Source: Solimonas soli DSM 21787 (GTDB lineage Bacteria > Pseudomonadota > Gammaproteobacteria > Nevskiales > Nevskiaceae). Taken from it: DNA of 64,000 bases. The stretch lies in assembly GCF_000474945.1 (NCBI RefSeq), contig NZ_AXDW01000011.1, positions 1-64,000 of the forward strand, given 5' to 3'. Positions 13,850 through 35,335 of this stretch are shown in pieces (within the stretch, counting starts at the first letter, position 1; every line of letters begins with the position of its first letter). Made by a program: the position numbers and the translations under genes. The notes beneath the pieces are model-generated. The model was not told the DNA's origin, ran no database searches, and saw nothing but the letters and a program-made list of their open reading frames with translations.

Positions 13850-13867
13850 CTCGTCCGAATGGAGATA
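13850..13867 (+). promoter_or_regulatory. Shared catabolic promoter motif, site a
   Basis: CTCGTCCGAATGGAGATA lies 102 bp upstream of the LuxR-type regulator start. It belongs to a set of five sites with consensus CTCGTCCGNNTGCRGAYA in this window. As the only gene reading away from it is the regulator, it suggests autoregulation. Confidence 0.6.
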
Positions 13868-13999
13868 AGCGGCCGGATGGTGGTGCCGGCCGGTGCCGCC
13901 GGATCGGGCCGGCGGGCGGTCTGTACCGCCGCCTTCGCACGGGCGAGGACCGGATCGGTGCGGGCCTTGACCGCCAGGCCGCTGCCGCTGTCGCGAGGC

Positions 14000-14776
14000 T
14001 CAAACCGAGAAGCGGTAGGTCAGCCCGGCCAGCCACTGCCGCAGCGCCGGGCCGTGAAGATCGGTCTGGTAGCCGACGTCGGCATCGAGGCCCGGCATCA
14101 CCGTCCAGATCAGGCCGACCAGGGCGCTCACCGGCCGGCGATCGTCGCTGCGATCGGTGTTCGATCCGGCGTCCGCCTCGGCGCTGGCGATCAGGCTCTC
14201 GTTGACGGTCCACATCAGCGCCGAGGACATGTGCACGACCTGCCTGCGCAGGCCGGCGTCGTCGGGGTTCTGCGTAAGCCCCAGGTTCGCGTGCACGGCG
14301 AACGGGGCGACGTCGCAGGTGGCGACCAGCAGTTCGTGCGCGGACAGCGTGCCGCGCGGCAGGCCCAGCCCCGCTTGCGCGGTCGCCAGCTCGAGCCCGG
14401 CGCGCAGGCCCAGCGACCACGGCGCGCGGCCGTAGAAACGCCATTTGACGTCGAGATTGCTGTCGCCCGGGCCTTGCGTCGTGTTCTGCACGGGGCCGCT
14501 GGCCCGCACCCAGGACGGCTGGACGAGCACATCGAACGTCGTCAGCAGGCCATACGACAGCTGCGGCTGGTAGATGAAGCTGCGAACGCCGCCGCCGCGG
14601 CTCAGCAGCAGACCGTTCTCGACCTCGACGTTGCTGACGCCCTGCGTGCCGGTGTCCTCGGTCTGCAGCGGATGCGCCGCCAGGGCCGGCAGCGGACGCA
14701 CGAGGGCGACGGCGGCGCCGAGGCAGACGCCTGCCATCCGTGCCAGGCCGATTTTCCGCGGCAGGCTCCTTCGCAT
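14000..14776 (-). CDS. Outer-membrane protein of the phenol-degradation MetA family
   Basis: A 258-residue protein with a signal peptide (cleavage near ALAAHP) and a body of amphipathic beta segments ending in an aromatic-rich strand, LAGLTYRFSV. The mature start HPLQTEDTGTQG and FIYQPQLSYG/NLDVKWRFYG resemble the MetA-pathway family (PF13557-type) proposed to help aromatic substrates cross the outer membrane. Divergent from the PstS-like gene, with about 108 bp between the starts. Substrate unknown. Confidence 0.7.
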   Translation of the reverse strand: MRRSLPRKIGLARMAGVCLGAAVALVRPLPALAAHPLQTEDTGTQGVSNVEVENGLLLSRGGGVRSFIYQPQLSYGLLTTFDVLVQPSWVRASGPVQNTTQGPGDSNLDVKWRFYGRAPWSLGLRAGLELATAQAGLGLPRGTLSAHELLVATCDVAPFAVHANLGLTQNPDDAGLRRQVVHMSSALMWTVNESLIASAEADAGSNTDRSDDRRPVSALVGLIWTVMPGLDADVGYQTDLHGPALRQWLAGLTYRFSV

Positions 14777-14884
14777 GCGGCGAAGCTTTGCGTACCAATA
14801 TGGCCCGGTCGTGACGGCGGCGGCGCTTCATGCGCCTGTCATGCGGCGTGCGGAGATTGACGGCTTCGACAGACGAGATTGCGC

Positions 14885-16141
14885 ATGCGGAGAATCCTGG
14901 CGGTGCTCCTGTGTTGCGGGATGGCGCCGGGCTTCGCCGGCGCGCTGCACGGCGCCGGCGCGACGTTTCCTTATCCGCTCTACGCGCGGTGGGCCGCGCA
15001 ATACCGCGCGCAGACCGGCATCGACGTCGACTACGACCCCGTCGGTTCGGGTGCGGGCATCGAGCGCGTCGAGCGCGGTCTCGTCGATTTCGGCGCCTCG
15101 GACATGCCGCTGTCGCCGCAGGACCTGCAACGAAACGCGCTGCAGCAGTTTCCGGCCGTCATCGGCGGCATCGTGCCGATCTTCAACATCGCGGGCATCG
15201 GCTCGGGCGAGCTGCGCCTGAGCGGCGCGGTGCTGGCCGATATCTACCGGGGCCGCATCCGCAAGTGGAATGCGCCGGCCATCACCGAACTGAATCCGCG
15301 GCTGCACCTGCCGAATTCGGCGATCACCGTCGTGCATCGCGCGGACGCTTCCGGGTCGAGCTTCCTGTGGGGCCGGTTTCTGGCCAGCGCGAGCGCGGAC
15401 TGGACCGTCGCGGTGACGGCAACGCCGGACTGGCCGGTCGGTGTGGCGGCGACAGGCAACGAAGGCGTCGCATCGTCGGTGCAGCGCACGCGCATGGCGA
15501 TCGGCTACGTCGAGTACGCCTATGCCCGCGAGCATCGGCTGTCGATGGCCGCCGTACAGAACCTCGCCGGCCGCTTCGTGCGGCCGGGCCTCGACGGCTT
15601 CCGCGCCGCCCTGGAGGCGTCGCAGGCGGCATCGCACGAAGCCGGAAACGCCGGCGAGGACTGGAATACGCGGCTGAGCAACCCGCCCGGCGAGAACAGC
15701 TGGCCGATCACGGCCGCGAGCTTCGTGCTGCTGCCCGCCGCCTCCGCCGCCGGCGAGCGCAGGCGCGAGGTCTACCGCTTCTTCGCCTGGGCCCTGCGCA
15801 ACGGCCAGCCGGCCGCGCTGAAGCTGGACTACCTGCCTTTGCCCGATGTCATCGTCGACGACATCATGCGGCGCTGGGCGGATGCCGATCGCCCGCCGGA
15901 CGCCGTCGCCCCGGCCGCGACTCCCTCGGCGGCGAGCCCGTGCACGTCGCGCTTTTCCGCACGCGCAGCTCCGTCGGCAGCGCAACCCCGGCTTCGGCCG
16001 GACACCGCCGTCCGCCCTGGCCTTCAATCAGGCCGCGAGCCACCAGGCCTCTTGCCGCACTGGCCGCGAGCCGGCCCGACGATTGAACCTTCTCGAGATC
16101 CGCGAGCAGCTCCTTTTCCGCTTCCGTCAGCAGCATCATGA
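14885..16141 (+). CDS. pstS: PstS-like phosphate-binding protein with aberrant C-terminal tail
   Basis: A signal peptide (MRRILAVLLCCGMAPGFAGA) precedes the PstS start GAGATFPYPLYARW; GSGAGIERV, DFGASDMPL and the DASGSSFLWGRFL block are phosphate-binding loops. The fold is complete by about residue 335 (IVDDIMRRWAD). The last 80 residues are Pro/Ala/Arg-rich and overlap a possible minus-strand gene, so a lost stop or frameshift near 15890 is likely. The ATG at 14885 is preferred over an in-frame TTG at 14879. No pstCAB genes follow, so it is an orphan binding protein. Confidence 0.78.
   Translation: MRRILAVLLCCGMAPGFAGALHGAGATFPYPLYARWAAQYRAQTGIDVDYDPVGSGAGIERVERGLVDFGASDMPLSPQDLQRNALQQFPAVIGGIVPIFNIAGIGSGELRLSGAVLADIYRGRIRKWNAPAITELNPRLHLPNSAITVVHRADASGSSFLWGRFLASASADWTVAVTATPDWPVGVAATGNEGVASSVQRTRMAIGYVEYAYAREHRLSMAAVQNLAGRFVRPGLDGFRAALEASQAASHEAGNAGEDWNTRLSNPPGENSWPITAASFVLLPAASAAGERRREVYRFFAWALRNGQPAALKLDYLPLPDVIVDDIMRRWADADRPPDAVAPAATPSAASPCTSRFSARAAPSAAQPRLRPDTAVRPGLQSGREPPGLLPHWPRAGPTIEPSRDPRAAPFPLPSAAS
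15864..16139 (-). CDS. Small hypothetical protein, possible winged-helix type
   Basis: A 91-residue frame converging on the PstS-like gene. Its first half (TEAEKELLADLEKVQSSGRL, then ARGLVARGLIEGQGG) reads like a short winged-helix segment; the second half is basic and Pro-rich and overlaps the unusual PstS tail. Only one of the two overlapping tails is likely to be natural. No function assigned. Confidence 0.35.
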   Translation of the reverse strand: MMLLTEAEKELLADLEKVQSSGRLAASAARGLVARGLIEGQGGRRCPAEAGVALPTELRVRKSATCTGSPPRESRPGRRRPAGDRHPPSAA

Positions 16142-16304
16142 GATTCGCCCGATGAGGTACCGGCGCGGATACTACGCCGCGACGATGACAGAGTTGCGGA
16201 CGGCGTATGCATCGCGGCGGCGGCCCGGTTGGCCGCGCGCGGCGATGCCGGCGGATCAGATCCGGTGCCCGCACGCGGCCGGCGCGCGCCATGGCGCGGC
16301 GCGG

Positions 16305-17270
16305 CTACCGCAAGGCGATGCGCAACTGCCCGGCGGCGAACGTCAGCGCCGCGTCCGCCGCGTCGATGACGCCGAGCATGCTCGCGAAACCGTGCACCTG
16401 GCCCGGCCAGCAGCGGCAGGCGACGGCGACGCCGTCGCCTTCGAGCTTGCGCGCGTAAGCCTCGCCTTCGCCGCGCAGCGGATCGAACTCGGCGGTGACG
16501 ATCGTCGCCGGCGCGACGCCGGCGACGGTCGCAGCGCGCAGCGGCGACGCGCGCGGGTCGAGCGCGGTCTTCGCATCGGCGACGTACTGGCGGCGGTACC
16601 AGCGCATCGCGTCGGCGCTCAGGAAGTAGCCGCGCCCGAACGCGGCATAGGTTTCGCTTTCGCCTGCGCAGTCGGTGACCGGATACAGCAGAAGCTGATG
16701 CCGCAATTGCGGGCCGTTGCGGCGCGCCAGCTGCGCGAGCACGGCGGCGAGGTTGCCGCCGGCGCTGTCGCCGGCGACGGCGAGGCGCGTGGCATCGGCA
16801 CCGACGCTCGCGGCGTTCGCGTCGAGCCAGTCGAGCGCAAACTGCGCATCCTCGACGGCGGCCGGGAACGGCGCTTCCGGCGCCAGCGCGTAATCGACCG
16901 ACACGACCAGCGAGCCGGCGCGCGCGGCGAGCGTGCGGCAGATGTTGTCGTGCGTATCGAGGCCACAGGCGACGAAGCCGCCACCGTGGAAATACAGGGT
17001 CATCGGCAAGGCCGCGGCATCGCCGTGCGGGCGGTACAGGCGGATCCGCAGATCGCCGTTCGGGCCGTACAGGGTGCGGTCGCTGATCGCCGCCACCTCG
17101 TCGCCGGGCGCGAACGGCGACGGATTCGCCGCCATCGCCGCGCGCAGCTGCGCCGCGGTCAGCGTCGTGTAGTCGGGCTGCGGTACGTGCGCCATCGCCG
17201 CGAGCAGGCCGGCGATCTGCGCATCGAGCGCGGCGGCGGGCGGCAAAGCATCGTTGGCGGCGGTCGACAT
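16305..17270 (-). CDS. Alpha/beta hydrolase, hormone-sensitive-lipase family esterase
   Basis: A 321-residue hydrolase with oxyanion motif YFHGGGF, nucleophile elbow GDSAGG, acid in TAEFDPLRGEG and His in PGQVHGF. This is the HSL (family IV) carboxylesterase signature. Cytoplasmic; no signal peptide from the ATG at 17270, which was preferred over an upstream frame that has no family match. Divergent from the luciferase-like monooxygenase with the shared CTCGTCCG motif between them, so it may process an ester or lactone made in the same pathway. Confidence 0.87.
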   Translation of the reverse strand: MSTAANDALPPAAALDAQIAGLLAAMAHVPQPDYTTLTAAQLRAAMAANPSPFAPGDEVAAISDRTLYGPNGDLRIRLYRPHGDAAALPMTLYFHGGGFVACGLDTHDNICRTLAARAGSLVVSVDYALAPEAPFPAAVEDAQFALDWLDANAASVGADATRLAVAGDSAGGNLAAVLAQLARRNGPQLRHQLLLYPVTDCAGESETYAAFGRGYFLSADAMRWYRRQYVADAKTALDPRASPLRAATVAGVAPATIVTAEFDPLRGEGEAYARKLEGDGVAVACRCWPGQVHGFASMLGVIDAADAALTFAAGQLRIALR

Positions 17271-17326: not shown

Positions 17327-17358
17327 CTCGTCCGGATGCAGATATGGCGGCGGACGAA
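17327..17358. promoter_or_regulatory. Shared catabolic promoter motif, site b
   Basis: CTCGTCCGGATGCAGATA (17327-17344) followed by CGGACGAA (17351-17358) in opposite orientation. It lies between the divergent esterase (start 17270) and luciferase-like monooxygenase (start 17413) genes. Confidence 0.65.
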
Positions 17359-17412
17359 GATGGCGGTGCCGGCGCTGCCCACACTGCGGGTCATTCGAGG
17401 AGGAGACCCGCT

Positions 17413-18555
17413 ATGAAGTTTTCACTGATCTACGAAGCGCAGACGATCGACGCCACGCGCGCCGGCGACCGTCGCATCTTCGACGAGACCGTCGAACAGG
17501 CCCTGCTCGCCGAGCAGATGGGTTTCGACGTGATCTGGTGCGTCGAGCACACGGCGCTGACCAACTACTCGCACATGAGCGCGCCGGAAACGGTGCTCGC
17601 CTTTCTCGCCGGCAAGACCAGCCGCATCCATCTCGGCCACGGCGTCGTGTGCCTGCCGCCGGCGATGAATCACCCGGTGAAGGTCGCCGAGCGCATCGCC
17701 ACGCTGGATCTCTTGAGTCACGGCCGCCTGCACTTCGGCGTCGGCAAGGGCGGCACGCAGCAGGAGTCCGGCACCTTCGGCTACGACCTGGCGACGCTGA
17801 ACCCGCAGATCGACGAGGCGATGTACCTGATCCCGAAAATCATGACGCAGGACGAGATCGAGCACGACGGCGTCTACGTGAAGATTCCCAGGCGGCCGAT
17901 TCACCCCAAGCCCTACCAGGACCCGCATCCGCCGATGTACCTCGCCTGCACCAACAGCGACACGCTGGCGCGCGCCGGCGGCCGCGGCATGGGCGCGCTG
18001 GTGCTCGGCTTCGGCGGCCCCGACGACGTGGCGAAGAAGAACCAGGTCTATCGGACGGCCTGGAATCAGCGCAGGGCCGAGGATCAGGTCGGCTTCCGCC
18101 CGAACCAGCATCTCGCCGCGCTATGCCCGACGATCGTCCTCGAGGACGGCCGGCAGGCGCGCAGGATCGGCATCAAGGGCCAGCGCTATTTCATGGAATC
18201 GCTCGCGCACTGGTACACCGGCGCGCCACGCCCGGACCCGGCGCAGTGGAGCGACGACATCACCGCGCACGACGCGAGCGGCAAGGACGTGATCAGGACC
18301 AGCTTCGCGTCCGAGAAGGTCGAAGTCGATTTCTCCGATCCGACCATGATGCTGCTCAACCCGAACCACGCCTATGGCACGGTCGACGATTGCATCGGCT
18401 ACGTGCAGCGCCTGATCGACGCCGGCGCCGACGAAATCCTCTTCATCTGCCAGATGGGCAGCGTCCCGCAATGGGCGCAGCTCGAAACGCTGAAGAACAT
18501 CGGCACGCACGTGATCCCGCACTTCCGCAAGCAGGGCGCCAAGCAGGCGGCGTAA
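17413..18555 (+). CDS. LLM-class flavin-dependent monooxygenase (luciferase-like)
   Basis: A 380-residue bacterial-luciferase-fold enzyme. The N-terminus KFSLIYEAQ, LLAEQMGFDVIWCVEHT and the core AERIATLDLLSHGRLHFGVGKG are typical; RGMGALVLGFGGPDD is the later flavin-binding region. Such enzymes use reduced FMN and oxygen for Baeyer-Villiger-type oxidation or hydroxylation; a flavin reductase is encoded at 25314-26330 under the same promoter motif. The start is set by a strong GAGGAGGAG RBS. Substrate not predictable; a keto-steroid or terpenoid intermediate is plausible. Confidence 0.85.
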   Translation: MKFSLIYEAQTIDATRAGDRRIFDETVEQALLAEQMGFDVIWCVEHTALTNYSHMSAPETVLAFLAGKTSRIHLGHGVVCLPPAMNHPVKVAERIATLDLLSHGRLHFGVGKGGTQQESGTFGYDLATLNPQIDEAMYLIPKIMTQDEIEHDGVYVKIPRRPIHPKPYQDPHPPMYLACTNSDTLARAGGRGMGALVLGFGGPDDVAKKNQVYRTAWNQRRAEDQVGFRPNQHLAALCPTIVLEDGRQARRIGIKGQRYFMESLAHWYTGAPRPDPAQWSDDITAHDASGKDVIRTSFASEKVEVDFSDPTMMLLNPNHAYGTVDDCIGYVQRLIDAGADEILFICQMGSVPQWAQLETLKNIGTHVIPHFRKQGAKQAA

Positions 18556-19857: not shown

Positions 19858-19934
19858 CGCTTTCTCATCCGCTTGCGCGATACGGGGCCGCGCGTCCGGC
19901 CCTAGTCTGCGGCCACACCGCAGGAGGAGCCCCG

Positions 19935-21437
19935 ATGAGCGAGCCACTCGCCAGCCATTCGCGTCACCGCCCTTGTCGCGTCCGCGATGTGCCGCGCTGG
20001 GACCTCGACACCGAGATCGCGATCGTCGGCTTCGGCGCCGCCGGCGCGAGCGCGGCGATCGAGGCGGCGGGCGCCGGTGCGCGGGTGACGCTGTTCGAGG
20101 CTGCGTCCGGACACGGCGGCACCTCGGCGCTGTCGGGCGGCGAGATCTATCTCGGCGGCAGCGGCGGCACGCCGATCCAGCGCAGCGCCGGCTTCAGCGA
20201 CGAGACCGAGGACTTCTATCAATACCTGCTGATGGCCGGCGGCCCGGACGCCGACGCCGCCAAGTGCCGGCTCTATGCCGAGCAGAGTCTCGCGCATTAC
20301 GAGTGGCTGGTCGCGCAGGGCGTGGTCTACAAGAATTCCTTCGTGCCGCAGCGCATCGTCGAGCCCTTCACCGACGACTGCCTGCTGTGGAGCGGCAGCG
20401 AGGAAGCCTGGCCGTTCTGCGAGAGTGCCAGGCCCTGCCCGCGCGGCCACACGCCGCAATGGATGGGGCTTGGCGGCGGCAAGTTCCTGATGGACGCGCT
20501 GGCCAGGCGCGTGCAGGCGCTCGGCGTCGAGCTGCGCTTCGACACGCGCGCCGTGGCGCTGATCGCCGACGACGCCAATCGCGTGCGGGGCCTCGTCGTG
20601 CGCGAGGGCGGCGTGGACCGCTACGTGCGCGCACGCCGCGGCGTGATCCTCTGCGCCGGCGGCTTCATCATGAACAAGGCCATGCTGCAGCAGCACGCGC
20701 CGCACATGCTGCGCGCCAACACGCCGATCGGCACCGTCGACGACGGCTCCGGCATCCTGCTCGGCCAGAGCGTCGGCGGCCACGCCATCCACATGAACGA
20801 AGGCTTCGTGACCTTGCCCTGGTATCCGCCGGAATCGCTGATCAAGGGCATCATGATCAACGAGCAGGGCCAGCGCTTCATCAACGAGGACGGCTACCAC
20901 GGCCGCACCGCGCAAATGATCCTGCAGCAGCGCGGCACGCGCTTCTGGCTGCTCGCCGACGGCGGGATCTTCAAGGAGCCGGAGTTCAGCGAGTTCGCCA
21001 AGCTCAGGATCGGCGCCGCGGCCGAGAGCTGGGAGGAACTCGAAGCCGAACTGGAACTGCCGGCCGGTTCGCTGACGGCGACCGTCGCGCTCTACAACCG
21101 CCACGCCGCCGAAGGCCGCGACCCGCTGTTCCGCAAGCAGCCGAAATGGCTCAAGCCGCTGACGCAGCCACCCTTCGTGGCGCTCGACTGCCGCATCGAC
21201 TTCTGCACCTACTTCACGTTCACGCTCGGCGGTCTCGACACCAGCGTGCGCGGCGAGGTGCTGACGGCGAGCCGCGAGCCGGTCGCCGGCCTCTACGCCG
21301 CCGGACGCACCAGCAGCGGTCTGCCGCGCTGGGGCGCCGGCTACAGTTCCGGCCTGTCGCTCGCCGATGCGACATTCTTCGGGCGCCAGGCCGGCCTCGC
21401 CGCGGCGCGTCGTGAACCGGCCGGAGACGGCACATGA
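19935..21437 (+). CDS. FAD-dependent 3-ketosteroid-dehydrogenase-like flavoprotein
   Basis: A 500-residue flavoprotein of the FAD_binding_2 family. The dinucleotide motif is VGFGAAGASAAIEA (residues 32-45), followed by the second FAD segment HGGTSALSGGEIYLGG and the C-terminal GLYAAGRTSSGLPRWGAGYSSGLSLADATFFGR. This layout is that of 3-ketosteroid dehydrogenases (delta1 and delta4-5alpha types) and fumarate-reductase-like relatives. Oxidation of a steroid A ring is inferred from similarity and context; other enoate or keto substrates are possible. The RBS AGGAGGA sets the ATG. Confidence 0.82.
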   Translation: MSEPLASHSRHRPCRVRDVPRWDLDTEIAIVGFGAAGASAAIEAAGAGARVTLFEAASGHGGTSALSGGEIYLGGSGGTPIQRSAGFSDETEDFYQYLLMAGGPDADAAKCRLYAEQSLAHYEWLVAQGVVYKNSFVPQRIVEPFTDDCLLWSGSEEAWPFCESARPCPRGHTPQWMGLGGGKFLMDALARRVQALGVELRFDTRAVALIADDANRVRGLVVREGGVDRYVRARRGVILCAGGFIMNKAMLQQHAPHMLRANTPIGTVDDGSGILLGQSVGGHAIHMNEGFVTLPWYPPESLIKGIMINEQGQRFINEDGYHGRTAQMILQQRGTRFWLLADGGIFKEPEFSEFAKLRIGAAAESWEELEAELELPAGSLTATVALYNRHAAEGRDPLFRKQPKWLKPLTQPPFVALDCRIDFCTYFTFTLGGLDTSVRGEVLTASREPVAGLYAAGRTSSGLPRWGAGYSSGLSLADATFFGRQAGLAAARREPAGDGT

Positions 21438-24478: not shown

Positions 24479-25303
24479 TCAGCACGTCGGCGGCGCGGGA
24501 TCGCGACGCGCGAGAATGCCGTCCGTCTTCGCGCGCAAGGCGGCGTCGAGCGCTTCCGGCTGCGGGACGATCCAGAAGCGGCGCTCGTGGATGCCGGCGA
24601 ACACGCGCGCGGCGAAGGTCTCGGGGCCGATGCCGTGCTGCGCGGTCAGCGCGCGCATCTGCGCGACGAAGCGCTCGCTCGCGGCATCGACGAGGCCGCC
24701 GAACGGGTCGTCGAAGATGGCGGTGACGACGGGGCCCGGCGCGAGCAGCGAGACGCCGAGCGGCGCCTGCCGCATCTGCATTTCCGCGTGCAGCGCTTCG
24801 CTCAGGCCGACGACCGCGAACTTGCTCGCCACGTATGGCGCCATCAGCGGGCTCGCGAGGAAGCCGCCGACCGACGCCGTGTTGATGATGTGCGCCGGCC
24901 GGTTCGCTTCGAGCAGCCGCGGCACGAAGGCGCGGACGCCGTTGACGACGCCGCCGATGTTGATGTCCAGCGTGCGCTGCCAGCGTGCCGCGTCGATCTG
25001 CCACGCCCAGCCGGTCGCCATCACGCCGGCGTTGTTGAACAGCAGGTCGACGCCGCCGTGTCGCTGCCAGGCCGCATCGGCCAGGGCGGCGACCGACGCC
25101 GCGTCGCTGACATCGGTGACGACGGCGCTGATCTCGCCGAGCGGGCCCAGCTCGGCGACCAGCGCATCGAGCTTCGCGGCGGCGATGTCGGCGGCGACCA
25201 CACGCATGCCGAGCCGCAGGGCGTGGCGCGCGAGGCCCAGGCCGATGCCGCTCGCGGCGCCGGTGATGACGGCGACGCCGCCGGCGATCTTCACAGTGCT
25301 CAT
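24479..25303 (-). CDS. SDR family NAD(P)-dependent oxidoreductase
   Basis: A 274-residue classical SDR: VITGAASGIGLGLARHALRL, NNAGVM, catalytic Ser in INTASVGG and YVASK. It is in the same direction as the flavin reductase and VOC gene upstream (10 bp from the flavin-reductase stop), so it probably forms the last gene of that operon. Expected to oxidise or reduce a hydroxyl/keto group of a catabolic intermediate. Confidence 0.87.
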   Translation of the reverse strand: MSTVKIAGGVAVITGAASGIGLGLARHALRLGMRVVAADIAAAKLDALVAELGPLGEISAVVTDVSDAASVAALADAAWQRHGGVDLLFNNAGVMATGWAWQIDAARWQRTLDINIGGVVNGVRAFVPRLLEANRPAHIINTASVGGFLASPLMAPYVASKFAVVGLSEALHAEMQMRQAPLGVSLLAPGPVVTAIFDDPFGGLVDAASERFVAQMRALTAQHGIGPETFAARVFAGIHERRFWIVPQPEALDAALRAKTDGILARRDPAPPTC

Positions 25304-25313
25304 GCGCTTGCTC

Positions 25314-26330
25314 TCAGGGTGGCGCGGGTTCCAGCGGCTGCCAGGGATCGGGCAGGCCGGGATCGGTGTTGCGGATCAGGTGGCGCAGCGAATGGCGCAG
25401 CGCTTCGGCTTCCGGCGCGCCGCAGGCCTGCAGGGCCTCGGCTTCGATCGCCGCGGTCGCGGCGATCAGTTGCTGCGTCAGCGCACGGCCATGCGCGGTC
25501 AGGTGATAGCGCGGTGCGTCGGCATCGCCCTGGGCGTCGAGCAGGCCGCGCGCGGCGAGCGCCTGCATCCGCTGTTCGGTCGCGGCGACGCCGGAGTACG
25601 CGAACACCTCGTTGAGACCGGCGAGCGTCGCGCCGTCCTGCAGTGCCAGCGTCGTCAGCGCGAAGTAGTCGGCGTCGCCGAGCCGCGCGTCGGCGAGCTG
25701 GCGGCGGATGCGGGCGTAGAACTGGAACCAGGCGCGGCCGAGCAGATAGCCGAGATGGTCCTCGCGCCAGCTCGCGGCCGGCACGTCGGCCGTGGCGGTT
25801 TCGCTTGCGGGACGCACGCTGCCGGCGCGACGCGCGGCGAACGCGTAACGGCCGGCCTGGAACACCAGCGGCGGCAGCTCGCTGCGATCGAAGGCGAGCA
25901 CCTCGCCGACGAAGATCAGGTGATCGCCGCCTTCGTACCGGAAGGCGCTGCGGCATTGCAGGCGCGTCGTGCAGCCGCGCAACAGCGGCACACCGCCGTG
26001 GCCTTCGTCGAGCTCCAGCCCGGCGAACTTGTCGTGGCCGCTCTTGGCGAAACGGTTCGACAATGCTTCCTGCTGCGCCGAGAGGATGTGCACGGCCCAG
26101 TGCCGCGCACCGGCGAACGCCGGCAGGCTGCGCGCACGCCTGGCCAGACTCCAGAGCACCATCGGCGGATCGAGCGAGACCGAATTGAAGCTGTTGGCGG
26201 TGATGCCGGCCGGCGTGCCGTCGGCGTCGCGCGTGGTGATGATGGTGACGCCGGTGGTGAAACTGCCGAGCGCGTTGCGGAACTCGCGCGCGTCGAACGG
26301 CAGACCAAGGCCCGGATCGTGATGGCCCAT
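25314..26330 (-). CDS. Flavin reductase with C-terminal MarR-like domain
   Basis: A 338-residue two-domain protein. Residues 8-165 are a flavin-reductase FMN-binding barrel: FRNALGSFTTGVTIITT, the PAGITANSFNSVSLDPPMVLWS block and HILSAQQ. Residues about 185-320 are MarR-like (LQDGATLAGLNEVFAYSGVAATEQRMQALAARGLL is the winged-helix core). The same fusion occurs in the reductase of p-hydroxyphenylacetate hydroxylase (C1 type), where the MarR part controls activity upon substrate binding. It would supply reduced flavin to a partner oxygenase. ATG 26330 follows GAGGAG; an alternative ATG at 26357 overlaps the VOC stop. Confidence 0.88.
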   Translation of the reverse strand: MGHHDPGLGLPFDAREFRNALGSFTTGVTIITTRDADGTPAGITANSFNSVSLDPPMVLWSLARRARSLPAFAGARHWAVHILSAQQEALSNRFAKSGHDKFAGLELDEGHGGVPLLRGCTTRLQCRSAFRYEGGDHLIFVGEVLAFDRSELPPLVFQAGRYAFAARRAGSVRPASETATADVPAASWREDHLGYLLGRAWFQFYARIRRQLADARLGDADYFALTTLALQDGATLAGLNEVFAYSGVAATEQRMQALAARGLLDAQGDADAPRYHLTAHGRALTQQLIAATAAIEAEALQACGAPEAEALRHSLRHLIRNTDPGLPDPWQPLEPAPP

Positions 26331-26353
26331 GACGGTTCTCCTCGGCGGCGTGC

Positions 26354-26695
26354 TCATGGCGCCGCGGTTTTCTGACTGATGACGATCGCGATGCCGGCAG
26401 CGTCGACCACGGCGCGGCGTTCGTGCGGACCGGCTGCGGCCGGGTGGCGCAGTTCGGCGCCGTGCGCCAGCAGCTTCGCAAGCGCCGTGTCGAGATCGGC
26501 GACGCGCACGACCAGTGCCGGCGTGTCGCTGATCGATTCGTCGCCAGCGCCCAGTGCGATGCGCAGCGCCTGCGCCGGCAGCGCCGCGTAGCGTTCGCCG
26601 TCGCGCAGCGCCGGCTCGAGGCCCAGCGCCTCGCGCAGCAGCGCGAGCGCGGGACCCAGCGCGGGGACGGGCAGCAGCAGGCTGTGCAGTTCCAT
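26354..26695 (-). CDS. VOC superfamily (glyoxalase-like) small protein
   Basis: A 113-residue single VOC module: LLLPVPALGPALALLREALG, then ALVVRVADLDTALAKLLAHGAELRHP and VVDAAGIAIVISQ. It is too short for an extradiol dioxygenase. Metal-ligand histidines are not obvious, so it may be a binding or isomerase/epimerase-like protein. First gene of a three-gene operon with flavin reductase and SDR; it reads away from the double CTCGTCCG motif. Confidence 0.72.
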   Translation of the reverse strand: MELHSLLLPVPALGPALALLREALGLEPALRDGERYAALPAQALRIALGAGDESISDTPALVVRVADLDTALAKLLAHGAELRHPAAAGPHERRAVVDAAGIAIVISQKTAAP

Positions 26696-26763: not shown

Positions 26764-26810
26764 CTCGTCCGCCTGCAGACATGGGCCGCGCGTATCTGCA
26801 TTCGGACGAG
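26764..26810. promoter_or_regulatory. Shared catabolic promoter motif, inverted double site c
   Basis: CTCGTCCGCCTGCAGACA (26764-26781) and, 11 bp on, TATCTGCATTCGGACGAG (26793-26810) in the opposite orientation. The pair forms a large inverted repeat between the divergent VOC operon (start 26695) and DUF1302 gene (start 26886). Confidence 0.72.
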
Positions 26811-26885
26811 ATCGATCGGACGACGAAGCGCCGCGCGCCGCGCTCCTACTCTCGATGCGCCCATCAGAGGCAGGAGGAGTGAACC

Positions 26886-28501: not shown

Positions 28502-29869
28502 ATGATGAAGAAGACTCTGACAGCCGGCGTCGTCGCCGCGCTGACGCTGGTCGCGGCGCCGGGCGCTTATGCCAAGGTCGGCGCCGAGCAGGCCGCGCAA
28601 CTCGGCGGCGACAAGCTCAACTGCATGGGCGCCGAGCGCGCCGGCAATGCCGACGGCAGCATTCCCGCGTATGGCGGCAAGTGGCTGGGCGCGGCGTGGC
28701 CCGGCGCGAAGCAGAGCGGCTACGACGCCGGCCCGTATGCCGACGAGAAACCGCTGTTCACGATCACCGCCGACAACGCCGCGCAGTACGCCGACAAGCT
28801 GACCGAAGGCCAGAAGGCGCTGCTCAAGCGCTATCCGCAGGCGTTCAAGATGCCGGTCTACGCCAGCCACCGCGACTTCCGCTATGCGGACTGGGTCTGC
28901 GACGCGGTGAAGAAGAACGCGACGGGCGCCGAGCTGCAGCACGACGGTCTCGGCGCGAGCGGCACGACCGGCGCGATTCCGTTTCCGTTCCCCAGGGACG
29001 GTCTCGAAGCGCAGACCAATATGCAGAACCCGCATCGCGCCTGGACCGAGGAAGGCATCCTCGATCAGGCCGTCGTCTATGCCGGCGGCAACCGCGCGAC
29101 CGGCCGCGTGCGCTACAAGATCCTGTCGCTGTGGAACGATCCCAGGCATCGCGGCAGCAACCAGGACACGGTCAACTCGTACTTCTATTCGGAAACGCTG
29201 CAGCCGGAACGCGAGAAGGGCGCGATCACGCTCGGCTGGACGCCGAACGACAACAGCATCGACCGTCAGGCCTGGTTCTACAGCCCCGGCACGCGGCGCG
29301 TGCGGCAGGCGCCGGAGTTCGGCTTCGACACGCCGCAGGGCGCCGGCGGCTTCCGCACCGTCGACGACGATCGCCTGTTCAACGGCTCGCCCGAGCGCTA
29401 CGACTGGAAGCTGCTCGGCAAGAAGGAAATCTACGTGCCGTACGACGCGTTCCGCTTGAACGATCCGGCGCTGAAATACGCCGAGCTGCTGACCGAGAGC
29501 AGCGTCAACCCGCAATACATGCGCTACGAGCTGCACCGCGTGTGGCTGATCGAAGCGACGGTCAAGAAAGGCTTTCGCCACATGTACGCGCGCCGCCAGT
29601 TCTACGTCGACGAAGACAGCTGGCACGCGCTGTGGGCCGACAACTACGACGGTCGCGGCCAGCTGTGGCGCGCGAGCATGGTCAACTACTTCTACGCGCC
29701 GTCGATCGAAGGTTTCCAGGCCGGCGTCGCGATCTATCACGATCTTACCGCCAATGCGTACTACGTCGATCGTCTCGTCAACGAGAGCAAGCAGTGGTGG
29801 GTGCTCAATCAGGGCGGCCTGACGCCGGAGATGTTCTCGCCGGACGCGGCGTCGCGGCACGGGCACTGA
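28502..29869 (+). CDS. DUF1329 family exported protein
   Basis: A 455-residue protein with signal peptide ending AYAKVG. The mature start EQAAQLGGDKLNCMGAERAG, the NPHRAWTEEG segment and YNGLNEG-like YDWKLLGKKEIYVPYD are DUF1329 features; the fold resembles the outer-membrane lipoprotein LolB-type half barrel. It follows the DUF1302 gene by 17 bp with GGAGAA as RBS. Probably a periplasmic partner of the DUF1302 barrel in moving hydrophobic compounds; direct evidence for this role is lacking in the family. Confidence 0.88.
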   Translation: MMKKTLTAGVVAALTLVAAPGAYAKVGAEQAAQLGGDKLNCMGAERAGNADGSIPAYGGKWLGAAWPGAKQSGYDAGPYADEKPLFTITADNAAQYADKLTEGQKALLKRYPQAFKMPVYASHRDFRYADWVCDAVKKNATGAELQHDGLGASGTTGAIPFPFPRDGLEAQTNMQNPHRAWTEEGILDQAVVYAGGNRATGRVRYKILSLWNDPRHRGSNQDTVNSYFYSETLQPEREKGAITLGWTPNDNSIDRQAWFYSPGTRRVRQAPEFGFDTPQGAGGFRTVDDDRLFNGSPERYDWKLLGKKEIYVPYDAFRLNDPALKYAELLTESSVNPQYMRYELHRVWLIEATVKKGFRHMYARRQFYVDEDSWHALWADNYDGRGQLWRASMVNYFYAPSIEGFQAGVAIYHDLTANAYYVDRLVNESKQWWVLNQGGLTPEMFSPDAASRHGH

Positions 29870-30316: not shown

Positions 30317-30533
30317 CGGCGGCGCTCCCTGACGAAGGATGCTTTCCCGTCGCACGCTTGATGCCGATCGGCCACGCGATCATGGCCGGTGCATGGATCG
30401 GGCGCGTGCCCGGCGGGCGCAGCGGTCATTGACGCGGCAGCGCATCGACAGCCGGACGTCAGTCATTTTCCCGTGATTTCAGTTACCTAGCATGCCCCGA
30501 TCGCGTGCCGACAGCGCGCGCCGACCCAGGGAT

Positions 30534-32774
30534 ATGAACGTGACCGAAGCAAAGATCTGGCGCGCCGCGATGGCGCCGCTTGCGCTGGCCGCTGCGTCGT
30601 TTGCGCATGCGCAGGAACCGGAAGCGGCGACCGTCGTCGCGTCGGCGCCGGAATCGGTCGCCGAAGTGCTCGTCACCGGCGATCTGAAATTCCGCAATCG
30701 CACAGAAGATGCGAATCCGGTGCTGTCGTACGACCTCGAATACTTCCAGCGCTTCGAGCCGGTGTCGGTCGGCGAGATGCTCAAGCGCGTGCCGGGCGTG
30801 ACGTTCACGTCCGACGTGCTCGAATTCGATGGCGTGTCGATGCGCGGCCTGCCGCCGGGCTACACGCAGATCCTCATCAACGGCCGCCGCGCGCCGGGTG
30901 GCGAGAGCGACCGCAGCTTCTTCGTCGACCGCATTCCGGCCGAGCTGGTCGAGCGCATCGAGATCGTGCGTTCGCCAGGCGCCGACCAGCCGGGCGATGG
31001 CATCGGCGGCACCTTGAACATCGTGCTCAAGGAAGGCGCCGATCTCGAAGGCGGCTTCATCAAGGGCGGTGCGCTGCTCAACGAAGACGGCAAGCTGCGG
31101 CCGGCGGCGGCCCTGGCGTATGCGGGCAGCAGCGAGTCGACGAGCTACTGGGCCGGCCTCAACGATCAGGGCCGCCGCAATCCGAAGCAGAAGTCCAGCT
31201 GGCGCTACGACGGCGACGGCGTGCTCGACAACATCGAGAAGCAGGACGACACGCGCGACGGCGTCGACGTCTCGGCGAACGGCGAGCTGACGCATCGCTT
31301 CGGCGGCGGCAGCTTCACGCTGTCAGGCCTGGTGGTCGACACCGATCGCGACGAGGACGAAACGTCGAAGACCTATGTCGATTCCGGCAGCGGCGCTTTC
31401 GACGCGCTCAAGGAAATCGAAGTGCAACGCGAGCGCATCTCGCAGCAGACCTACGACGTCGACCTGAGCGGCGATTTCGAAGCCGGCGCCGGCAAGCTGT
31501 CGGCCAATGTGGGCTGGACCGGCTTTCGCGAGGACTCGACCGCGGAGACCGACAAGGGCGCCACGTTCGACGGACTGGCGCTCGATGAGCACATCAAGAC
31601 CAGGATCACCGATGACGAATACAGTGGCGGTATCGCTTACAGCCTGCCTCTGGACGCGTGGAAGCTGAAAGGCGGTCTCGATTTGCTGAGCAAGAAGCGC
31701 GATGGCGCCGAAGTCGAGTACGACATCGAGGATGACGGCTCGGTCGGTGACCCGGACCCGGCGCCCGGCGCGATCTACACGATCAAGGAAACGCGCATCG
31801 ATCCGTATCTGCGCGCCACGTATGCGCCGACCTCGGCGCTGACGCTCGACCTTGGCCTGCGCGCCGAAACGACGAAGCGCGATGTCGACAGCGACGACGG
31901 CAGTGTCAACCACAAGGACACCGACTGGAATCCGTCGCTGCATCTGACCTACGCGATGAGCGCTGTCGATCAGCTGCGCGCGTCGCTGGCGCGCACCGTG
32001 CGCCGTCCGGACTACGACCTGCTGGCGCCGTTCACTGCAAAGGAAGAGCCGACCGACGGCGACGATCTGCAGGGCAATCCGCATCTGAAGAACGAGACGG
32101 CCTGGGGCCTCGACGTCGGTTACGAACGCCGTCTCGGCAGGCTCGGCGTGTTCGGCGTCGACGCGTTCTATCGTCGCATCAGCGACCTGATCGAGACGGT
32201 CAACACCGGCACGGCCTCGGAGTCGGGCGAAGGCAAGGTCTACGAACCGCGCAATCTCGACGACGAGGGCAATACCTGGGGTGTCGAAGTCGATTTCTCG
32301 GCGCCGCTCGCGGTGCTGCAGATGCCCGACACCGGCCTGTTCTTCAACTACAGCTGGATGAACAGCAGCGTGCGCGATCCCTACACCGGCCAGAGCCGTC
32401 GCTTCACCAACCAGCCGCACGGGGTCTACAACATCGGCTTCATCCAGACCGTGCGCGCCTGGGATATGAGTTTCGGCGCGAGCTATTACGATCGTGACGC
32501 CGGCTGCGAATCGAACTTCGACGAGACGGTGAAAGTCGCTTACGAAGCTGACCTCGAAGCGTTCATCGAAAAGCGCTTCGGCAAGCGCGTCGTCGTGCGC
32601 ATCGCGGCGATGAACCTGCTCGATGCACACAAGGACGAACTGTTCCACAAGTACGACGGCGACAGCGTGCAGGACGTGCTCGACAACCGTCGCGATGGCG
32701 TCGTCGACGAGATCGAACACGAGAGCGAGCACTCCGGCCCCCTGTACGAACTGACGCTGCGCGTCGCGTTCTGA
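30534..32774 (+). CDS. TonB-dependent outer-membrane receptor
   Basis: A 746-residue receptor. A signal peptide ends at FAHAQE; the plug domain (residues 40-170) contains VGEMLKRVPGVTF, the MRGLPPGYTQILINGRRAPG block and ERIEIVRSPGADQPGDGIGGTL; the barrel follows and ends in YELTLRVAF with the terminal Phe. The ATG at 30534 gives a proper signal peptide. It is followed after 15 bp by a phytase-like gene; such pairs are widespread and suggest uptake of inositol phosphates or their metal complexes, with energy from TonB-ExbBD encoded elsewhere. Confidence 0.92.
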   Translation: MNVTEAKIWRAAMAPLALAAASFAHAQEPEAATVVASAPESVAEVLVTGDLKFRNRTEDANPVLSYDLEYFQRFEPVSVGEMLKRVPGVTFTSDVLEFDGVSMRGLPPGYTQILINGRRAPGGESDRSFFVDRIPAELVERIEIVRSPGADQPGDGIGGTLNIVLKEGADLEGGFIKGGALLNEDGKLRPAAALAYAGSSESTSYWAGLNDQGRRNPKQKSSWRYDGDGVLDNIEKQDDTRDGVDVSANGELTHRFGGGSFTLSGLVVDTDRDEDETSKTYVDSGSGAFDALKEIEVQRERISQQTYDVDLSGDFEAGAGKLSANVGWTGFREDSTAETDKGATFDGLALDEHIKTRITDDEYSGGIAYSLPLDAWKLKGGLDLLSKKRDGAEVEYDIEDDGSVGDPDPAPGAIYTIKETRIDPYLRATYAPTSALTLDLGLRAETTKRDVDSDDGSVNHKDTDWNPSLHLTYAMSAVDQLRASLARTVRRPDYDLLAPFTAKEEPTDGDDLQGNPHLKNETAWGLDVGYERRLGRLGVFGVDAFYRRISDLIETVNTGTASESGEGKVYEPRNLDDEGNTWGVEVDFSAPLAVLQMPDTGLFFNYSWMNSSVRDPYTGQSRRFTNQPHGVYNIGFIQTVRAWDMSFGASYYDRDAGCESNFDETVKVAYEADLEAFIEKRFGKRVVVRIAAMNLLDAHKDELFHKYDGDSVQDVLDNRRDGVVDEIEHESEHSGPLYELTLRVAF

Positions 32775-32789
32775 ACGTAAAGTGCGCCC

Positions 32790-33842
32790 ATGAGACATTT
32801 CGCCGCGCTGTCTTCCTTGTTCCTGCTTGCCGCCTGCGCCGGTACGTCGCAGCCGATCGTCGATGCCCTGCCGACCGCGTCGGTGCCGGTCGTGCGCGAG
32901 ACGACCGCCGTGCGCACACGTGACGATGCTGCCGACGATCCGGCGATCTGGCGGCATCCGGGCGATCCGGCGAGGAGCCTGATCGTCTCGACCGACAAGA
33001 AGGCCGGCCTCTACGTCTACGGTCTCGATGGCCGGACGCGGTCGTTCACGCCGGCCGGCCGCGTCAACAACGTCGACCTGCTGGCCGATGTGAAGGTCGC
33101 TGGTCATCCCGCGGTGCTGGTCGCCGCCAGCGACCGCAGCGACGAGCGCCATGCGGCGCTGGCGCTGTACACGCTGACCACCGAGGGCCGGCTCGCGGCG
33201 CTCGCGCGGTTGCCGGCCGGCGCCGGCGAGGCTTACGGCATCTGCCTGTGGCAGCGCGCGGCCGATCGCGCCACGTTCGCGTTTGTCGTCGCCAAGGACG
33301 GCACGATTCATCAGCTGCAGCTCGATCTCGCCGGCGCGACGCCGCTCGCCAGGCCGGTGCGCCAGCTCAAGCTGGCGACGCAATCGGAAGGCTGCGTCGT
33401 CGATGCGCGCACGGCGCAGCTCTATGTCGGCGAGGAGGACGTCGGCGTCTGGCGTTTCGCCGCCGATCCCTCGGGCGCGGCGACGCCGGTGCTGTTCGCG
33501 AAAGCCGATGGCCGGCAACTGGTCGTCGACGTCGAAGGCGTCGCGCTGGCCCCGCAGGGCGCGCGCGGCGGCTATCTGCTGGTGTCGAGCCAGGGCGACA
33601 AGGCCTACGCGATCTATCGCCTCGAAGACGGAACGTATGCCGGGCGCTTCCGCCTCGTCGCCAATACGGCCGGGGTGGACGGCACCAGCGGCACCGATGG
33701 CATCGAGCTGATGCTCGGCGACTTCGGGCCGGATTTCCCGGGCGGGCTGTTCGTCGCCCAGGACGGCGACAACGCGCCGGAGACACAGAACTTCAAGCTG
33801 GCATCGTGGCGGTCGATCGCCGAGGCGCTGAAGCTCGATTGA
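32790..33842 (+). CDS. Beta-propeller 3-phytase lipoprotein
   Basis: A 350-residue lipoprotein (lipobox LLAAC, Cys16). DDAADDPAIWRHPGDPARSLIVSTDKKAGLYVYGLDG, split over two blades, is the start of beta-propeller phytases; acidic clusters for calcium (DDAADD, DVEGVAL, GTDGIELM) are present. Removes phosphate from phytate. Together with the TonB receptor it forms a phytate-scavenging unit at the outer membrane. Confidence 0.88.
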   Translation: MRHFAALSSLFLLAACAGTSQPIVDALPTASVPVVRETTAVRTRDDAADDPAIWRHPGDPARSLIVSTDKKAGLYVYGLDGRTRSFTPAGRVNNVDLLADVKVAGHPAVLVAASDRSDERHAALALYTLTTEGRLAALARLPAGAGEAYGICLWQRAADRATFAFVVAKDGTIHQLQLDLAGATPLARPVRQLKLATQSEGCVVDARTAQLYVGEEDVGVWRFAADPSGAATPVLFAKADGRQLVVDVEGVALAPQGARGGYLLVSSQGDKAYAIYRLEDGTYAGRFRLVANTAGVDGTSGTDGIELMLGDFGPDFPGGLFVAQDGDNAPETQNFKLASWRSIAEALKLD

Positions 33843-33847
33843 GATTC

Positions 33848-33870
33848 GCGCGGCCGCCGACCGGCCGCGC
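33848..33870. terminator. GC-rich hairpin between convergent genes
   Basis: GCGCGGCCG-CCGAC-CGGCCGCGC, a perfect 9-bp stem between the phytase and HD-protein stops. Possible bidirectional terminator; no T tract. Confidence 0.5.
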
Positions 33871-34406
33871 TACCACTTCATCATCGGCGCCGGCCGCAGC
33901 GGATGGCGGATCAGCCAGGCGCCGGCGCGCCGCAGCAGCATGCGATGAAAACCGGCGTTCGGCAGCTCGGCTCTGACGTCCTTGATGAGACGAGCATCGA
34001 GCCCGCAGCGGCGGAGGCCGAGCGAGAAGTCGACGAGATCGGCGCGGCGGAACACTTCGACGAGCGGATAGCGCGCATCGCGCACCGGACGCAGCTTGTG
34101 GTGCTCGCCGATCATCAGCGCGATCTCCTCGCGCCATTGCTCGTCGCCGCGTTGGCGCAGACAGGCGAGTGCCGCCGCAATCGACGGCGGCAGATAGTCG
34201 AGCGTGTTCGCCGTCCACAGGCCGATGTCGTGAAAGCAGGCGGCGATCGCCAGCTTCTGCCGGTCGAGTTCACTGCAGTCGTGCAGCGCCTGGCAGAACG
34301 TCAGCATGCGCTGGCAGTGATGGCGGTAGCCGTCGAAGTCGGCACCGATCAGCTCGCGCCACGGTGCCAGCAATTCGTCGAGCAGCGGGTCCACATGGCG
34401 TGTCAT
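33870..34406 (-). CDS. HD domain protein
   Basis: A 178-residue protein with His in YRHHCQRML, the HD pair in ACFHDIGLWT and a later Asp in RRADLVDFS, matching a small HD phosphohydrolase. Related proteins are described only as HD-domain hydrolases acting on nucleotides or unknown phosphates. The ATG at 34406 is preferred to an upstream frame. It lies downstream of the SDR at 34498 in the same direction. Confidence 0.75.
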   Translation of the reverse strand: MTRHVDPLLDELLAPWRELIGADFDGYRHHCQRMLTFCQALHDCSELDRQKLAIAACFHDIGLWTANTLDYLPPSIAAALACLRQRGDEQWREEIALMIGEHHKLRPVRDARYPLVEVFRRADLVDFSLGLRRCGLDARLIKDVRAELPNAGFHRMLLRRAGAWLIRHPLRPAPMMKW

Positions 34407-34497
34407 CGGCAAGGCACTCGGCGTCGTTCGATCGGCCCGATCTTGCCTGCCCCGCACACCGGCCGCCAGCGGCTGGCGCCGGCGCGCCGATGCCGGA

Positions 34498-35259
34498 TCA
34501 GCGCGCGAGATAACCGCCGTCGGCGGCGAGCACCGCGCCGTTGACGTAGCTGGCGCGATCCGAGCAGGCCCAGACGGCGACGTCGGCGATCTCCGCGGCG
34601 CGGCCGATGCGCGCCGCCGGCACGGTGACGGCCGCCATCTCGCGGAACTGCTGCAGCTCGAACACCGATTTCGTCATCGGCGTTTCGATGAAGCCCGGCG
34701 CGACGGCATTGCAGCGGATGTTCCGTGCGCCGTATTCGACGGCGACGGTCCTGGTCAGGCCGACCACGCCGTGCTTGGCGGCGACATAACCCGGAATGCC
34801 GGCGAGGCCGACCTGCCCGGCGATCGACGCCGTGTTGACGATGCTGCCGCCGCCGGTCTTCAGCATCGCGCGCAGCTGGTAGCGCAGGCAGTAGAAGACG
34901 CCGGACAGATTGACGGCGATCATGCGATCCCAGAGTTCGAGCGGATAGTCGGCCGTGCCCGGCGGAACCGGCCCGTCGGAGATGCCGGCATTGTTGAAGG
35001 CGCAATCGAGCCGGCCGTAGTGCGCGACCGCGGCCGCGACCAGCGCCTCGCACTGCGCTGCCTGCGCGACGTCGGTGCGTTGGAAGATCGCCGCCCGGCC
35101 CGCCGCGCGCAGTCCGGCGGCCAGGGCTTCGCCGGCTTCGGCGTCGAGGTCGGCAAGCACGAGCCGCGCGCCTTCCTCGGCGAAGCGCAGCGCACCGGCG
35201 CGGCCGATGCCGGACGCCGCGCCGGTGATGATGGCGACCTTTTCGCGCAATTCGTCCAT
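34498..35259 (-). CDS. SDR family NAD(P)-dependent oxidoreductase
   Basis: A 253-residue SDR with VAIITGAASGIGRAGALRFAEEG, NNAGIS, Ser in NTASIAG, YVAAK and the C-terminal NGAVLAADGGYLAR. The layout is full length and catalytically complete. The ATG at 35259 has GGAGAG upstream. Divergent from a second SDR with the shared CTCGTCCG motif between, so both belong to the presumed regulon. Likely a hydroxysteroid or other alcohol dehydrogenase. Confidence 0.88.
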   Translation of the reverse strand: MDELREKVAIITGAASGIGRAGALRFAEEGARLVLADLDAEAGEALAAGLRAAGRAAIFQRTDVAQAAQCEALVAAAVAHYGRLDCAFNNAGISDGPVPPGTADYPLELWDRMIAVNLSGVFYCLRYQLRAMLKTGGGSIVNTASIAGQVGLAGIPGYVAAKHGVVGLTRTVAVEYGARNIRCNAVAPGFIETPMTKSVFELQQFREMAAVTVPAARIGRAAEIADVAVWACSDRASYVNGAVLAADGGYLAR

Positions 35260-35317
35260 GCCGCTCTCCTCGCAGGTGATGATCGCCGCCAGCATCGCGC
35301 GCGGGCGGGTGCGCAGC

Positions 35318-35335
35318 CTCGTCCGCTTGCGGACA
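35318..35335 (+). promoter_or_regulatory. Shared catabolic promoter motif, site d
   Basis: CTCGTCCGCTTGCGGACA between two divergent SDR genes (starts 35259 and 35420). Matches the consensus CTCGTCCGNNTGCRGAYA of the other four sites. Confidence 0.65.

Follow-up and report, generated by a model that had tools for sequence, protein, structure and literature searches.

A directional, dyad-derived promoter box, probably the operator of a LuxR-type regulator, in a pdc-like gene cluster of Solimonas soli

Introduction

The described systems closest to the locus treated here are TeiR, a LuxR-type regulator tied to steroid catabolic genes and acting positively according to the sections of the reports drawn on here (PMC8700777, PMC6895838, PMC8399759), and the pdc cluster of Caenibius tardaugens, whose luciferase-like monooxygenase (LLM) turns progesterone into testosterone acetate (PMC12239570). 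In the portions of the latter paper used here, the LuxR gene beside the LLM gene is induced threefold, the cluster includes a TetR gene, the only flavin reductase lies far off, the acetate hydrolase is called unknown, and the LLMs of N. aromaticivorans and Caenibius are 88% identical. Here we analyse an 18-bp motif repeated at promoters in a 64,000-nt stretch of Solimonas soli DSM 21787 (contig NZ_AXDW01000011.1, positions 1 to 64,000; hereafter the window). Judged from sequence, the motif is probably the operator of the LuxR-type regulator P0001, encoded at 12540-13748, which would drive a progesterone-type module by class II activation.

The locus resembles pdc in that an LLM occurs with a LuxR-type regulator, and the window LLM shares 64.7% identity with its homologue in pNL2 (98% of the query aligned). 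The two differ in that here the genes for an esterase-like protein (Est), a flavin reductase, DUF1302/DUF1329 proteins and SDRs carry the same box, and in that P0001 is only 30.7% identical to the pNL2 regulator. With TeiR the locus shares a LuxR-type regulator tied to steroid catabolic genes. The system is real and of an ordinary type, an activator regulon; its operator was not found described in the literature searched, and that search, mostly outside subscription papers, yielded no described operator for regulators of the TeiR/TesR kind.

Results

Distribution of the motif

The repeated motif is real. The window holds four exact matches to CTCGTCCGNNTGCRGAYA, at 17327 (+), 26764 (+), 26793 (-) and 35318 (+); a preliminary description of this DNA had placed the motif at five positions, the fifth of which, 13850 (+), carries a single mismatch (TGGAG in place of TGCRG). 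A scan of the 4.19-Mb assembly returns four perfect matches, all inside this cluster, and one-mismatch places only at 13850 and at C20:2948, the latter rejected as a regulatory site since it lies inside a ribonucleotide-reductase reading frame. This confinement does not extend to looser matching: at up to two mismatches the motif has 22 hits in the assembly and its reversed control 41, and at up to three the window has 7 against a shuffle mean of 3.67, with 5 of 100 shuffles reaching 7, so that weaker matches are background. Among 58 genomes of the family, perfect matches occur only in the window's own genome (G000, four) and in Solimonas terrae (G044, two); Solimonas marina is G040 in this set.

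Gene positions rest on GC-frame analysis, Pfam and NCBIfam, and the starts were set by domain limits and comparison. Under these starts all five sites are intergenic, which bears out what had been said of them. The site at 26764-26781 overlaps a possible N-terminal extension of the VOC open reading frame (ORF), whose frame is broken by a 1-bp indel relative to S. terrae, and that at 35318 overlaps an extension of SDR1, the domain of which begins only at residue 78. A sequence profile (18 sites, 85 genomes) gives 18 hits of at least 15.5 bits; as it was built from those 18 sites, its top hits are training sites by construction, and 16 are cluster sites from the training set. The others are S. 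terrae C2:137561, rejected as a regulon site because it sits among flagellar genes, and G005:C5:334960.

Orientation of the boxes and spacing to the -10 element

Read in reverse, the motif is TATCTSCAnnCGGACGAG, and every site then faces one gene, these being the LuxR gene, Est, the VOC-flavin reductase-SDR3 run, DUF1302-DUF1329 and SDR1. The genes and boxes are as follows.

12540..13748, minus strand: LuxR-type regulator P0001, 402 aa from the translation; sensor region at the N terminus, then a PAS-like domain and a probable LuxR-type helix-turn-helix (HTH) at the C terminus
13850..13867, minus strand: box TATCTCCATTCGGACGAG toward the LuxR gene; -10-like TATGCT at 13829-13824
16305..17270, minus strand: Est, alpha/beta hydrolase of the hormone-sensitive-lipase group, 321 aa; Abhydrolase_3 6.2e-74 (longer ORF)
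17327..17344, minus strand: box TATCTGCATCCGGACGAG toward Est; -10-like GACAAT at 17304-17299
17342..17357, plus strand: half-degenerate box ATATGGCGGCGGACGA toward LLM; -10-like CACACT at 17380-17385
17413..18555, plus strand: LLM, 380 aa; Bac_luciferase 1.8e-42
24479..26695, minus strand: VOC, flavin reductase and SDR3, a single gene run (26354-26695; 25314 to about 26360; 24479-25303)
26764..26781, minus strand: box TGTCTGCAGGCGGACGAG toward VOC; -10-like CAAGCT at 26741-26736
26793..26810, plus strand: distal box TATCTGCATTCGGACGAG toward DUF1302; -10-like hexamer 36 nt away
26808..26823, plus strand: proximal degenerate box GAGATCGATCGGACGA before DUF1302; -10-like TACTCT at 26847-26852
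26886-28484 and about 28505-29869, plus strand: DUF1302 and DUF1329; PF06980 2.5e-131, PF07044 7.3e-116
34498..35259, minus strand: SDR1, 253 aa; adh_short_C2 2.4e-66 (longer ORF)
35318..35335, minus strand: box TGTCCGCAAGCGGACGAG toward SDR1; -10-like GATGCT at 35296-35291

Est scores 363.6 bits against NCBIfam NF058653 (LipP1; cut-off 350), the flavin reductase ORF matches Flavin_Reduct (2e-39), and SDR3 has an SDR family match. The VOC label comes from the preliminary description; Pfam gives no match for this small ORF, which S. terrae, G056, G057 and two Burkholderiales also have in conserved form.

A -10-like hexamer of the form nAnnnT lies 20-22 nt past the box in all 14 sites tested, which represent the window and four relatives. 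When the spacers are shuffled, 0.69 sites fit on average and at most 4 do so in 2000 shuffles; the offset was picked after inspection of those same 14 sites. Five 18-mers were omitted from this test, namely 26793 and the LLM sites of G047-G050. Taken by itself, the distal box at 26793 breaks the spacing rule, by virtue of its hexamer at 36 nt. Beside the omitted 18-mers there is a second, degenerate GACGA element 22-23 nt ahead of a -10-like hexamer, and the S. terrae copy aligned to the proximal DUF1302 box is TATCTCAGTTCAGACGAG, with its -10 at 22 nt. At the LLM promoter, checked after the rule was set, all 10 genomes compared have GACGA with nAnnnT 21-22 nt on, while no nAnnnT follows within 18-25 nt at the other GACGA elements of these stretches, six of them upstream and oriented toward LLM and two oriented toward Est. 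Because orientation and -10 spacing tie each site to one gene, we reject the possibility that one site serves both divergent genes; the sharing of sites by divergent gene pairs, as at first proposed, gives way to an assignment of each site to a single gene.

In class II activator promoters of LuxR-type proteins, the LuxR site is centred near -42. The boxes described here are likewise centred near -42 of the inferred start, with a sigma-70-like -10 at fixed spacing. They differ from the boxes of those promoters, which are full palindromes, in having one half changed.

A palindrome upstream of the regulator family

Up to 600 nt of upstream sequence was collected from 66 of the 84 P0001-family matches, the 18 dropped being one fragment and more distant copies. 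The palindrome TCRTCCRNNYGGAYGA is present in 46 of the 66 upstreams at up to two mismatches, in 32 at up to one, and without mismatch in 16, compared with means of 2.0 (maximum 12) at up to two and 0.17 (maximum 3) at up to one for 58 permuted dyads, the maxima being those among the rows listed. Once near-copies are removed, it is found in 33 of 49 (up to two mismatches). Since the palindrome came from inspecting the best hits, part of the upstream set informed it. The spacing at the palindromes is the stronger result: on the regulator-distal side of the 33 palindromes, nAnnnT occurs at 22 nt in 13 and at 23 nt in 12 (one sequence may count at both), the remaining offsets between 8 and 35 giving 0-4, and the rule had been derived from the cluster sites and not from these palindromes. 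The regulator-facing side has a weaker peak, with 9 palindromes at 22 nt and 0-4 at any other offset.

The window motif is in register with this palindrome, with its far half altered, and the description of the motif as simply asymmetric was dropped for that of a dyad-derived box once the family palindrome was found. The two-half motif first described is indeed conserved at orthologous promoters; what changes is its nature, as it is dyad-derived, with one half changed, and directional. The presence of the palindrome upstream of family regulators supports the LuxR-type protein of 12540-13748 as the binder, and the original choice of this 402-residue protein as the regulator gains further support from its gene association, conservation and the fixed -10 spacing.

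Regulator domains and phylogeny

Pfam GerE is matched weakly in 12 of 12 homologues at E values up to 0.5 (best 1.6e-05; 0.0048 for P0001, below the Pfam cut-off); the PAS match is weak. In the PDB, a regulator profile finds a histidine kinase at E 0.003 and also VpsT, a protein of the LuxR family, whose HTH matches at E 0.009. The AlphaFold model of P0001 is of modest confidence (mean pLDDT 70.5, pTM 0.43) and includes a helix at 368-382; the segment NTARTYLRFIF is taken as the recognition helix. Regulators of LLM clusters share TYLRF in this presumed helix, and most other family members have THLRS. In a tree of 49 rows (four duplicates removed), one branch (99/99) splits 10 YLRF rows from 35 HLRS rows, and four rows have neither; two of the YLRF rows (G004 and S. 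marina) are from genomes without LLM at E 1e-60. A class-wide search for the regulator in 369 sampled genomes gave one match outside the order at E 1e-40.

Conservation in relatives

The sites, their spacing, their conservation and their association with the regulator gene are read directly from the DNA. LLM orthologues (85-91% identity) occur in 9 of the 84 other genomes of the order that were searched. A P0001 homologue (53-55%) directly adjoins Est/LLM in G047-G050, G056 and G057, and the Est/LLM promoter of the same genomes bears TATCTCAAAACGGACGAC or near forms; stated by genome, the regulator gene stands beside a motif-bearing Est/LLM pair in 6 of 8 other-genus genomes with LLM. In the window the LuxR gene is 3.7 kb from LLM.

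The LuxR, Est, VOC and DUF1302 boxes are retained in S. terrae amid diverged flanks. The Est box is identical there and has diverged versions in G056 and G057, and at the DUF1302 promoters these two genomes have CATCTCAATTCGGACGAG and TATCTCAATTCGGATGAA. S. terrae has a degenerate SDR1 box, with 3 mismatches; the box is absent from S. marina, which has no SDR1 at this place and retains SDR2; the LuxR box of S. marina is retained with 3 mismatches. Overall, promoters of six kinds have conserved the asymmetric TATCT half. As a separate observation, a conserved CGCCCGCATTCGGACGAG with CAGACT 22 nt on was seen in two genomes of one genus, G047 and G050 (L125:13751 and L130:911).

Outside the family, Caballeronia sp. 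SBC2 has LuxR (42%), VOC (44%) and LLM (74%) genes together, with a perfect palindrome before LuxR and a two-mismatch box between VOC and LLM, both -10-spaced. Of the two spaced boxes in Burkholderia arboris, the first reads toward VOC and the second is located just behind LLM. As background, 145 kb of other stretches hold 3 such boxes, and shuffling the two Burkholderiales stretches yields 0.45 per shuffle for the pair. LLM was absent at E 1e-120 from 399 genomes of another large family of the class, in a search run without a positive control.

Palindrome-type boxes and a second regulator

With spacing enforced, palindrome-type boxes also precede four further genes, for FAD, SDR2, SnoaL and the SDR at 1902.

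1822..1837, plus strand: palindrome-type box TCGTCCTTTTGAGTGA (3 mismatches) before the SDR at 1902-2690; -10-like TAATGT 22 nt on
19865..19880, plus strand: palindrome-type box TCATCCGCTTGCGCGA upstream of FAD; -10-like TAGTCT at 19903-19908
19935..21437, plus strand: FAD, FAD-binding oxidoreductase (PRK07121 family), from domain matches
35342..35357, plus strand: degenerate palindrome-type box TCATCACTATGGAGGA (3 mismatches) before SDR2; -10-like CATGAT at 35381-35386
35420..36181, plus strand: SDR2, 253 aa, from domain matches
36207..36222, plus strand: palindrome-type box TCATCCGGACGCATGA upstream of SnoaL; -10-like GACAGT at 36245-36250
36283..36771, plus strand: SnoaL-like protein, 162 aa; SnoaL_4 4.4e-27

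Nine cluster promoters together have 29 mismatches to the palindrome with spacing enforced, compared with a mean of 60.5 and a minimum of 46 for 300 permuted dyads. The four promoters outside the original set of sites account for 11 mismatches, against a permuted-dyad mean of 26.4 and never fewer than 18. Among 15 other genes of the window the best are the SDR at 1902 (3 mismatches) and GNAT (4).

These boxes recur in relatives. The spaced box toward FAD is also found in S. terrae, G047 and G050. G056 and G057 have their box in the region that FAD and SDR2 share, where its spacing fits SDR2 and not FAD. The SDR2 promoter of S. terrae and S. marina has TCGTCCCTATGGGGGA with CATGAT 23 nt on. The SnoaL box is retained with 1 mismatch in S. 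terrae and with 3 in S. marina, and was not seen in G056 and G057. Each of the five relatives compared at the gene of the 1902 SDR (S. marina, S. terrae, G056, G049 and G050) has a box before it, with a -10-like hexamer 22-23 nt on. Directly behind this SDR lies an ORF (2572-3312) with the N-terminal domain of AraC-type regulators.

P0001 is linked to the LLM/Est cluster. A paralogue at C8:136389, 53% identical to P0001, adjoins HsaA-like and KstD-like genes: a related box (1 mismatch) lies about 240 nt upstream of it and about 60 nt before a divergent SnoaL gene, and a few kb beyond that gene are the HsaA-like (378 bits, cut-off 450) and KstD-like (607 bits, cut-off 788) genes, both below the NCBIfam cut-offs. 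As the additional boxes of the cluster are palindrome-type, the paralogue may share its control, so that two related regulators may act on the cluster. The idea of one regulon, put forward from the motif alone, is supported, with the amendment that the regulon exceeds the five sites and that at least four of its promoters (1902, FAD, SDR2 and SnoaL) are palindromic.

The genome holds a single perfect palindrome, at C8:238921-238936 (L221); a -10-like hexamer follows after 22 nt, and a gene with a TetR_N domain comes next, at 238957. Palindromes with one mismatch and a spaced -10 occur at C8:149651 and C8:218842, near the gene starts of a TonB receptor and a CoA-transferase; these two are likely targets of the paralogous regulator.

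Discussion

Proposed mechanism and operator code

In the mechanism that we favour, a P0001 dimer would bind an 18-bp box derived from the palindrome TCRTCCR-NN-YGGAYGA, with the half next to RNA polymerase (CGGACGAG) preserved and TATCTSCA in place of the far half. The box centre near -42, with a -10 hexamer 20-22 nt downstream, points to P0001 as a class II activator, which would touch RNA polymerase from this position. P0001 would activate its own gene, Est, LLM, the VOC-flavin reductase-SDR run, DUF1302-DUF1329 and SDR1, and is predicted to prefer the box TATCTGCAnnCGGACGAG over the palindrome; FAD, SDR2, SnoaL and the SDR at 1902 may answer to the paralogue. Dimer binding, activation, the inducer and the substrate are what we infer from the arrangement of sites and genes.

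A more specific proposal, to which we give somewhat less than even weight, is an operator code in which the HLRS paralogue would use TCRTCCRNNYGGAYGA and the YLRF paralogue TATCTSCAnnCGGACGAG, the second regulon being a self-contained progesterone module with Est as the steryl-acetate hydrolase and the flavin reductase as the partner of LLM. The two proteins would then be a natural paralogue pair in which a change of helix goes with a change in one operator half. More generally, with an operator of fixed geometry in hand, regulons of this sort can be found from sequence.

Several observations weigh against P0001 as a class II activator of this module. The five 18-mers omitted from the spacing test lack a -10 at 20-22 nt. 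Measured against the palindrome, the sites first described show 3-4 mismatches and the LLM box shows 5, a range that the best control promoters reach too (GNAT 4, a TonB receptor 5, the gene at 45532 5); for SDR1, the best palindrome-type hit lies elsewhere than the box at 35318. One clade of the regulator family (47-50% identity; L222-L227 and L203) has the HLRS helix and no upstream box. S. marina has the regulator, no LLM at E 1e-60, and a 21-kb locus without Est or DUF1302, and G012 and G022 have LLM, with no YLRF regulator among the copies examined there. The palindrome is in the upstreams of only 1 of 13 homologues from the other large family of the class (12 lack it), and two Novosphingobium stretches are without a spaced box, from which we take it that the box is not general to all such regulators. 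Finally, no type I Baeyer-Villiger monooxygenase family was seen among those window ORFs that were scanned with Pfam.

The module and alternative explanations

This last result, together with the orientation of the TetR gene at 37463-38128, which faces an efflux operon, is why we term the cluster pdc-like and not pdc. It is probably a progesterone side-chain module, as judged from its gene content. LLM and the flavin reductase would make an acetate ester, from which Est would remove the acetate; the SDRs would oxidise the alcohol, and DUF1302/DUF1329 would assist with the hydrophobic substrate. We propose Est as the steroid-acetate hydrolase and the flavin reductase as the partner of LLM. Shared boxes put both in one regulon, which makes them good candidates for these roles, and the shared switch nominates two enzymes that the 2025 progesterone paper, in the portions used here, could not place in its cluster (PMC12239570).

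The alternative that survives best, though we regard it as unlikely, leaves the regulon as described and changes the substrate, with LLM acting on a different ketone, for instance a terpenoid or some other steroid. Type II Baeyer-Villiger enzymes accept a variety of ketones. The lack of the type I family in the ORFs scanned counts for this alternative too, as does the distance of the window LLM from a tested enzyme: only 64.7% identity to the pNL2 homologue, itself 88% identical to the enzyme tested in the parts of the study cited (PMC12239570). It has to be set against the steroid-type KstD-like and HsaA-like genes on the same contig, and against the gene order in pNL2, where LLM is followed by a LuxR-type gene and then a steroid isomerase gene. 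As to naming, Saro_3594 is the LLM in one section of the paper and the LuxR gene in another, among the sections used here (PMC12239570); the pNL2 annotation has LLM as SARO_RS18845, followed by the HTH regulator SARO_RS18850.

Less probable again is that the boxes are bound mainly by the paralogue at C8:136389, with P0001 merely one of its targets. The paralogue uses the same box family, has a related box upstream, with SnoaL and then the HsaA- and KstD-like genes beyond it, and three cluster genes (FAD, SDR2 and SnoaL) bear the palindromic form. What this leaves unaccounted for is the asymmetric TATCT half, which is itself conserved at the six kinds of promoter and accompanies the YLRF helix found in cluster-borne regulators.

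We consider it quite improbable that the motif is the operator of an unrelated factor, for instance the TetR protein of 37463-38128, or the -35 element of an alternative sigma factor. The TetR gene adjoins the cluster, and the pdc cluster of Caenibius also has one, according to the parts of the report used (PMC12239570), but the gene here is divergent from, and nearly touches, the efflux operon starting at 38137. The related palindrome tracks the LuxR family (46 of 66 upstreams), and 20-22 nt from the box to a sigma-70-like -10 is unsuited to a -35 element. Chance repetition or a recent duplication of promoter DNA, without regulatory meaning, is hardly credible: the window count at up to three mismatches is barely above that of shuffles (7 against 3.67), but perfect matches are found only in the cluster, conservation is focused on the box and the -10 spacing is fixed.

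Other features of the window

Between DUF1329 and SDR1 are TonB receptor and phytase genes (30492-33842), and by blastn this stretch is unmatched in the S. terrae region compared. Tandem sulfatase genes (4815-6545 and 6684-8447) are located near an SDR gene and an ORF with a sodium/bile-acid symporter domain (8981-10867), and these may form a possible group for steroid-sulfate uptake and cleavage. An RHS-repeat gene and small ORFs at 50755-56700 have a GC content at third codon positions (GC3) below most of the window, and are perhaps a recently acquired island.

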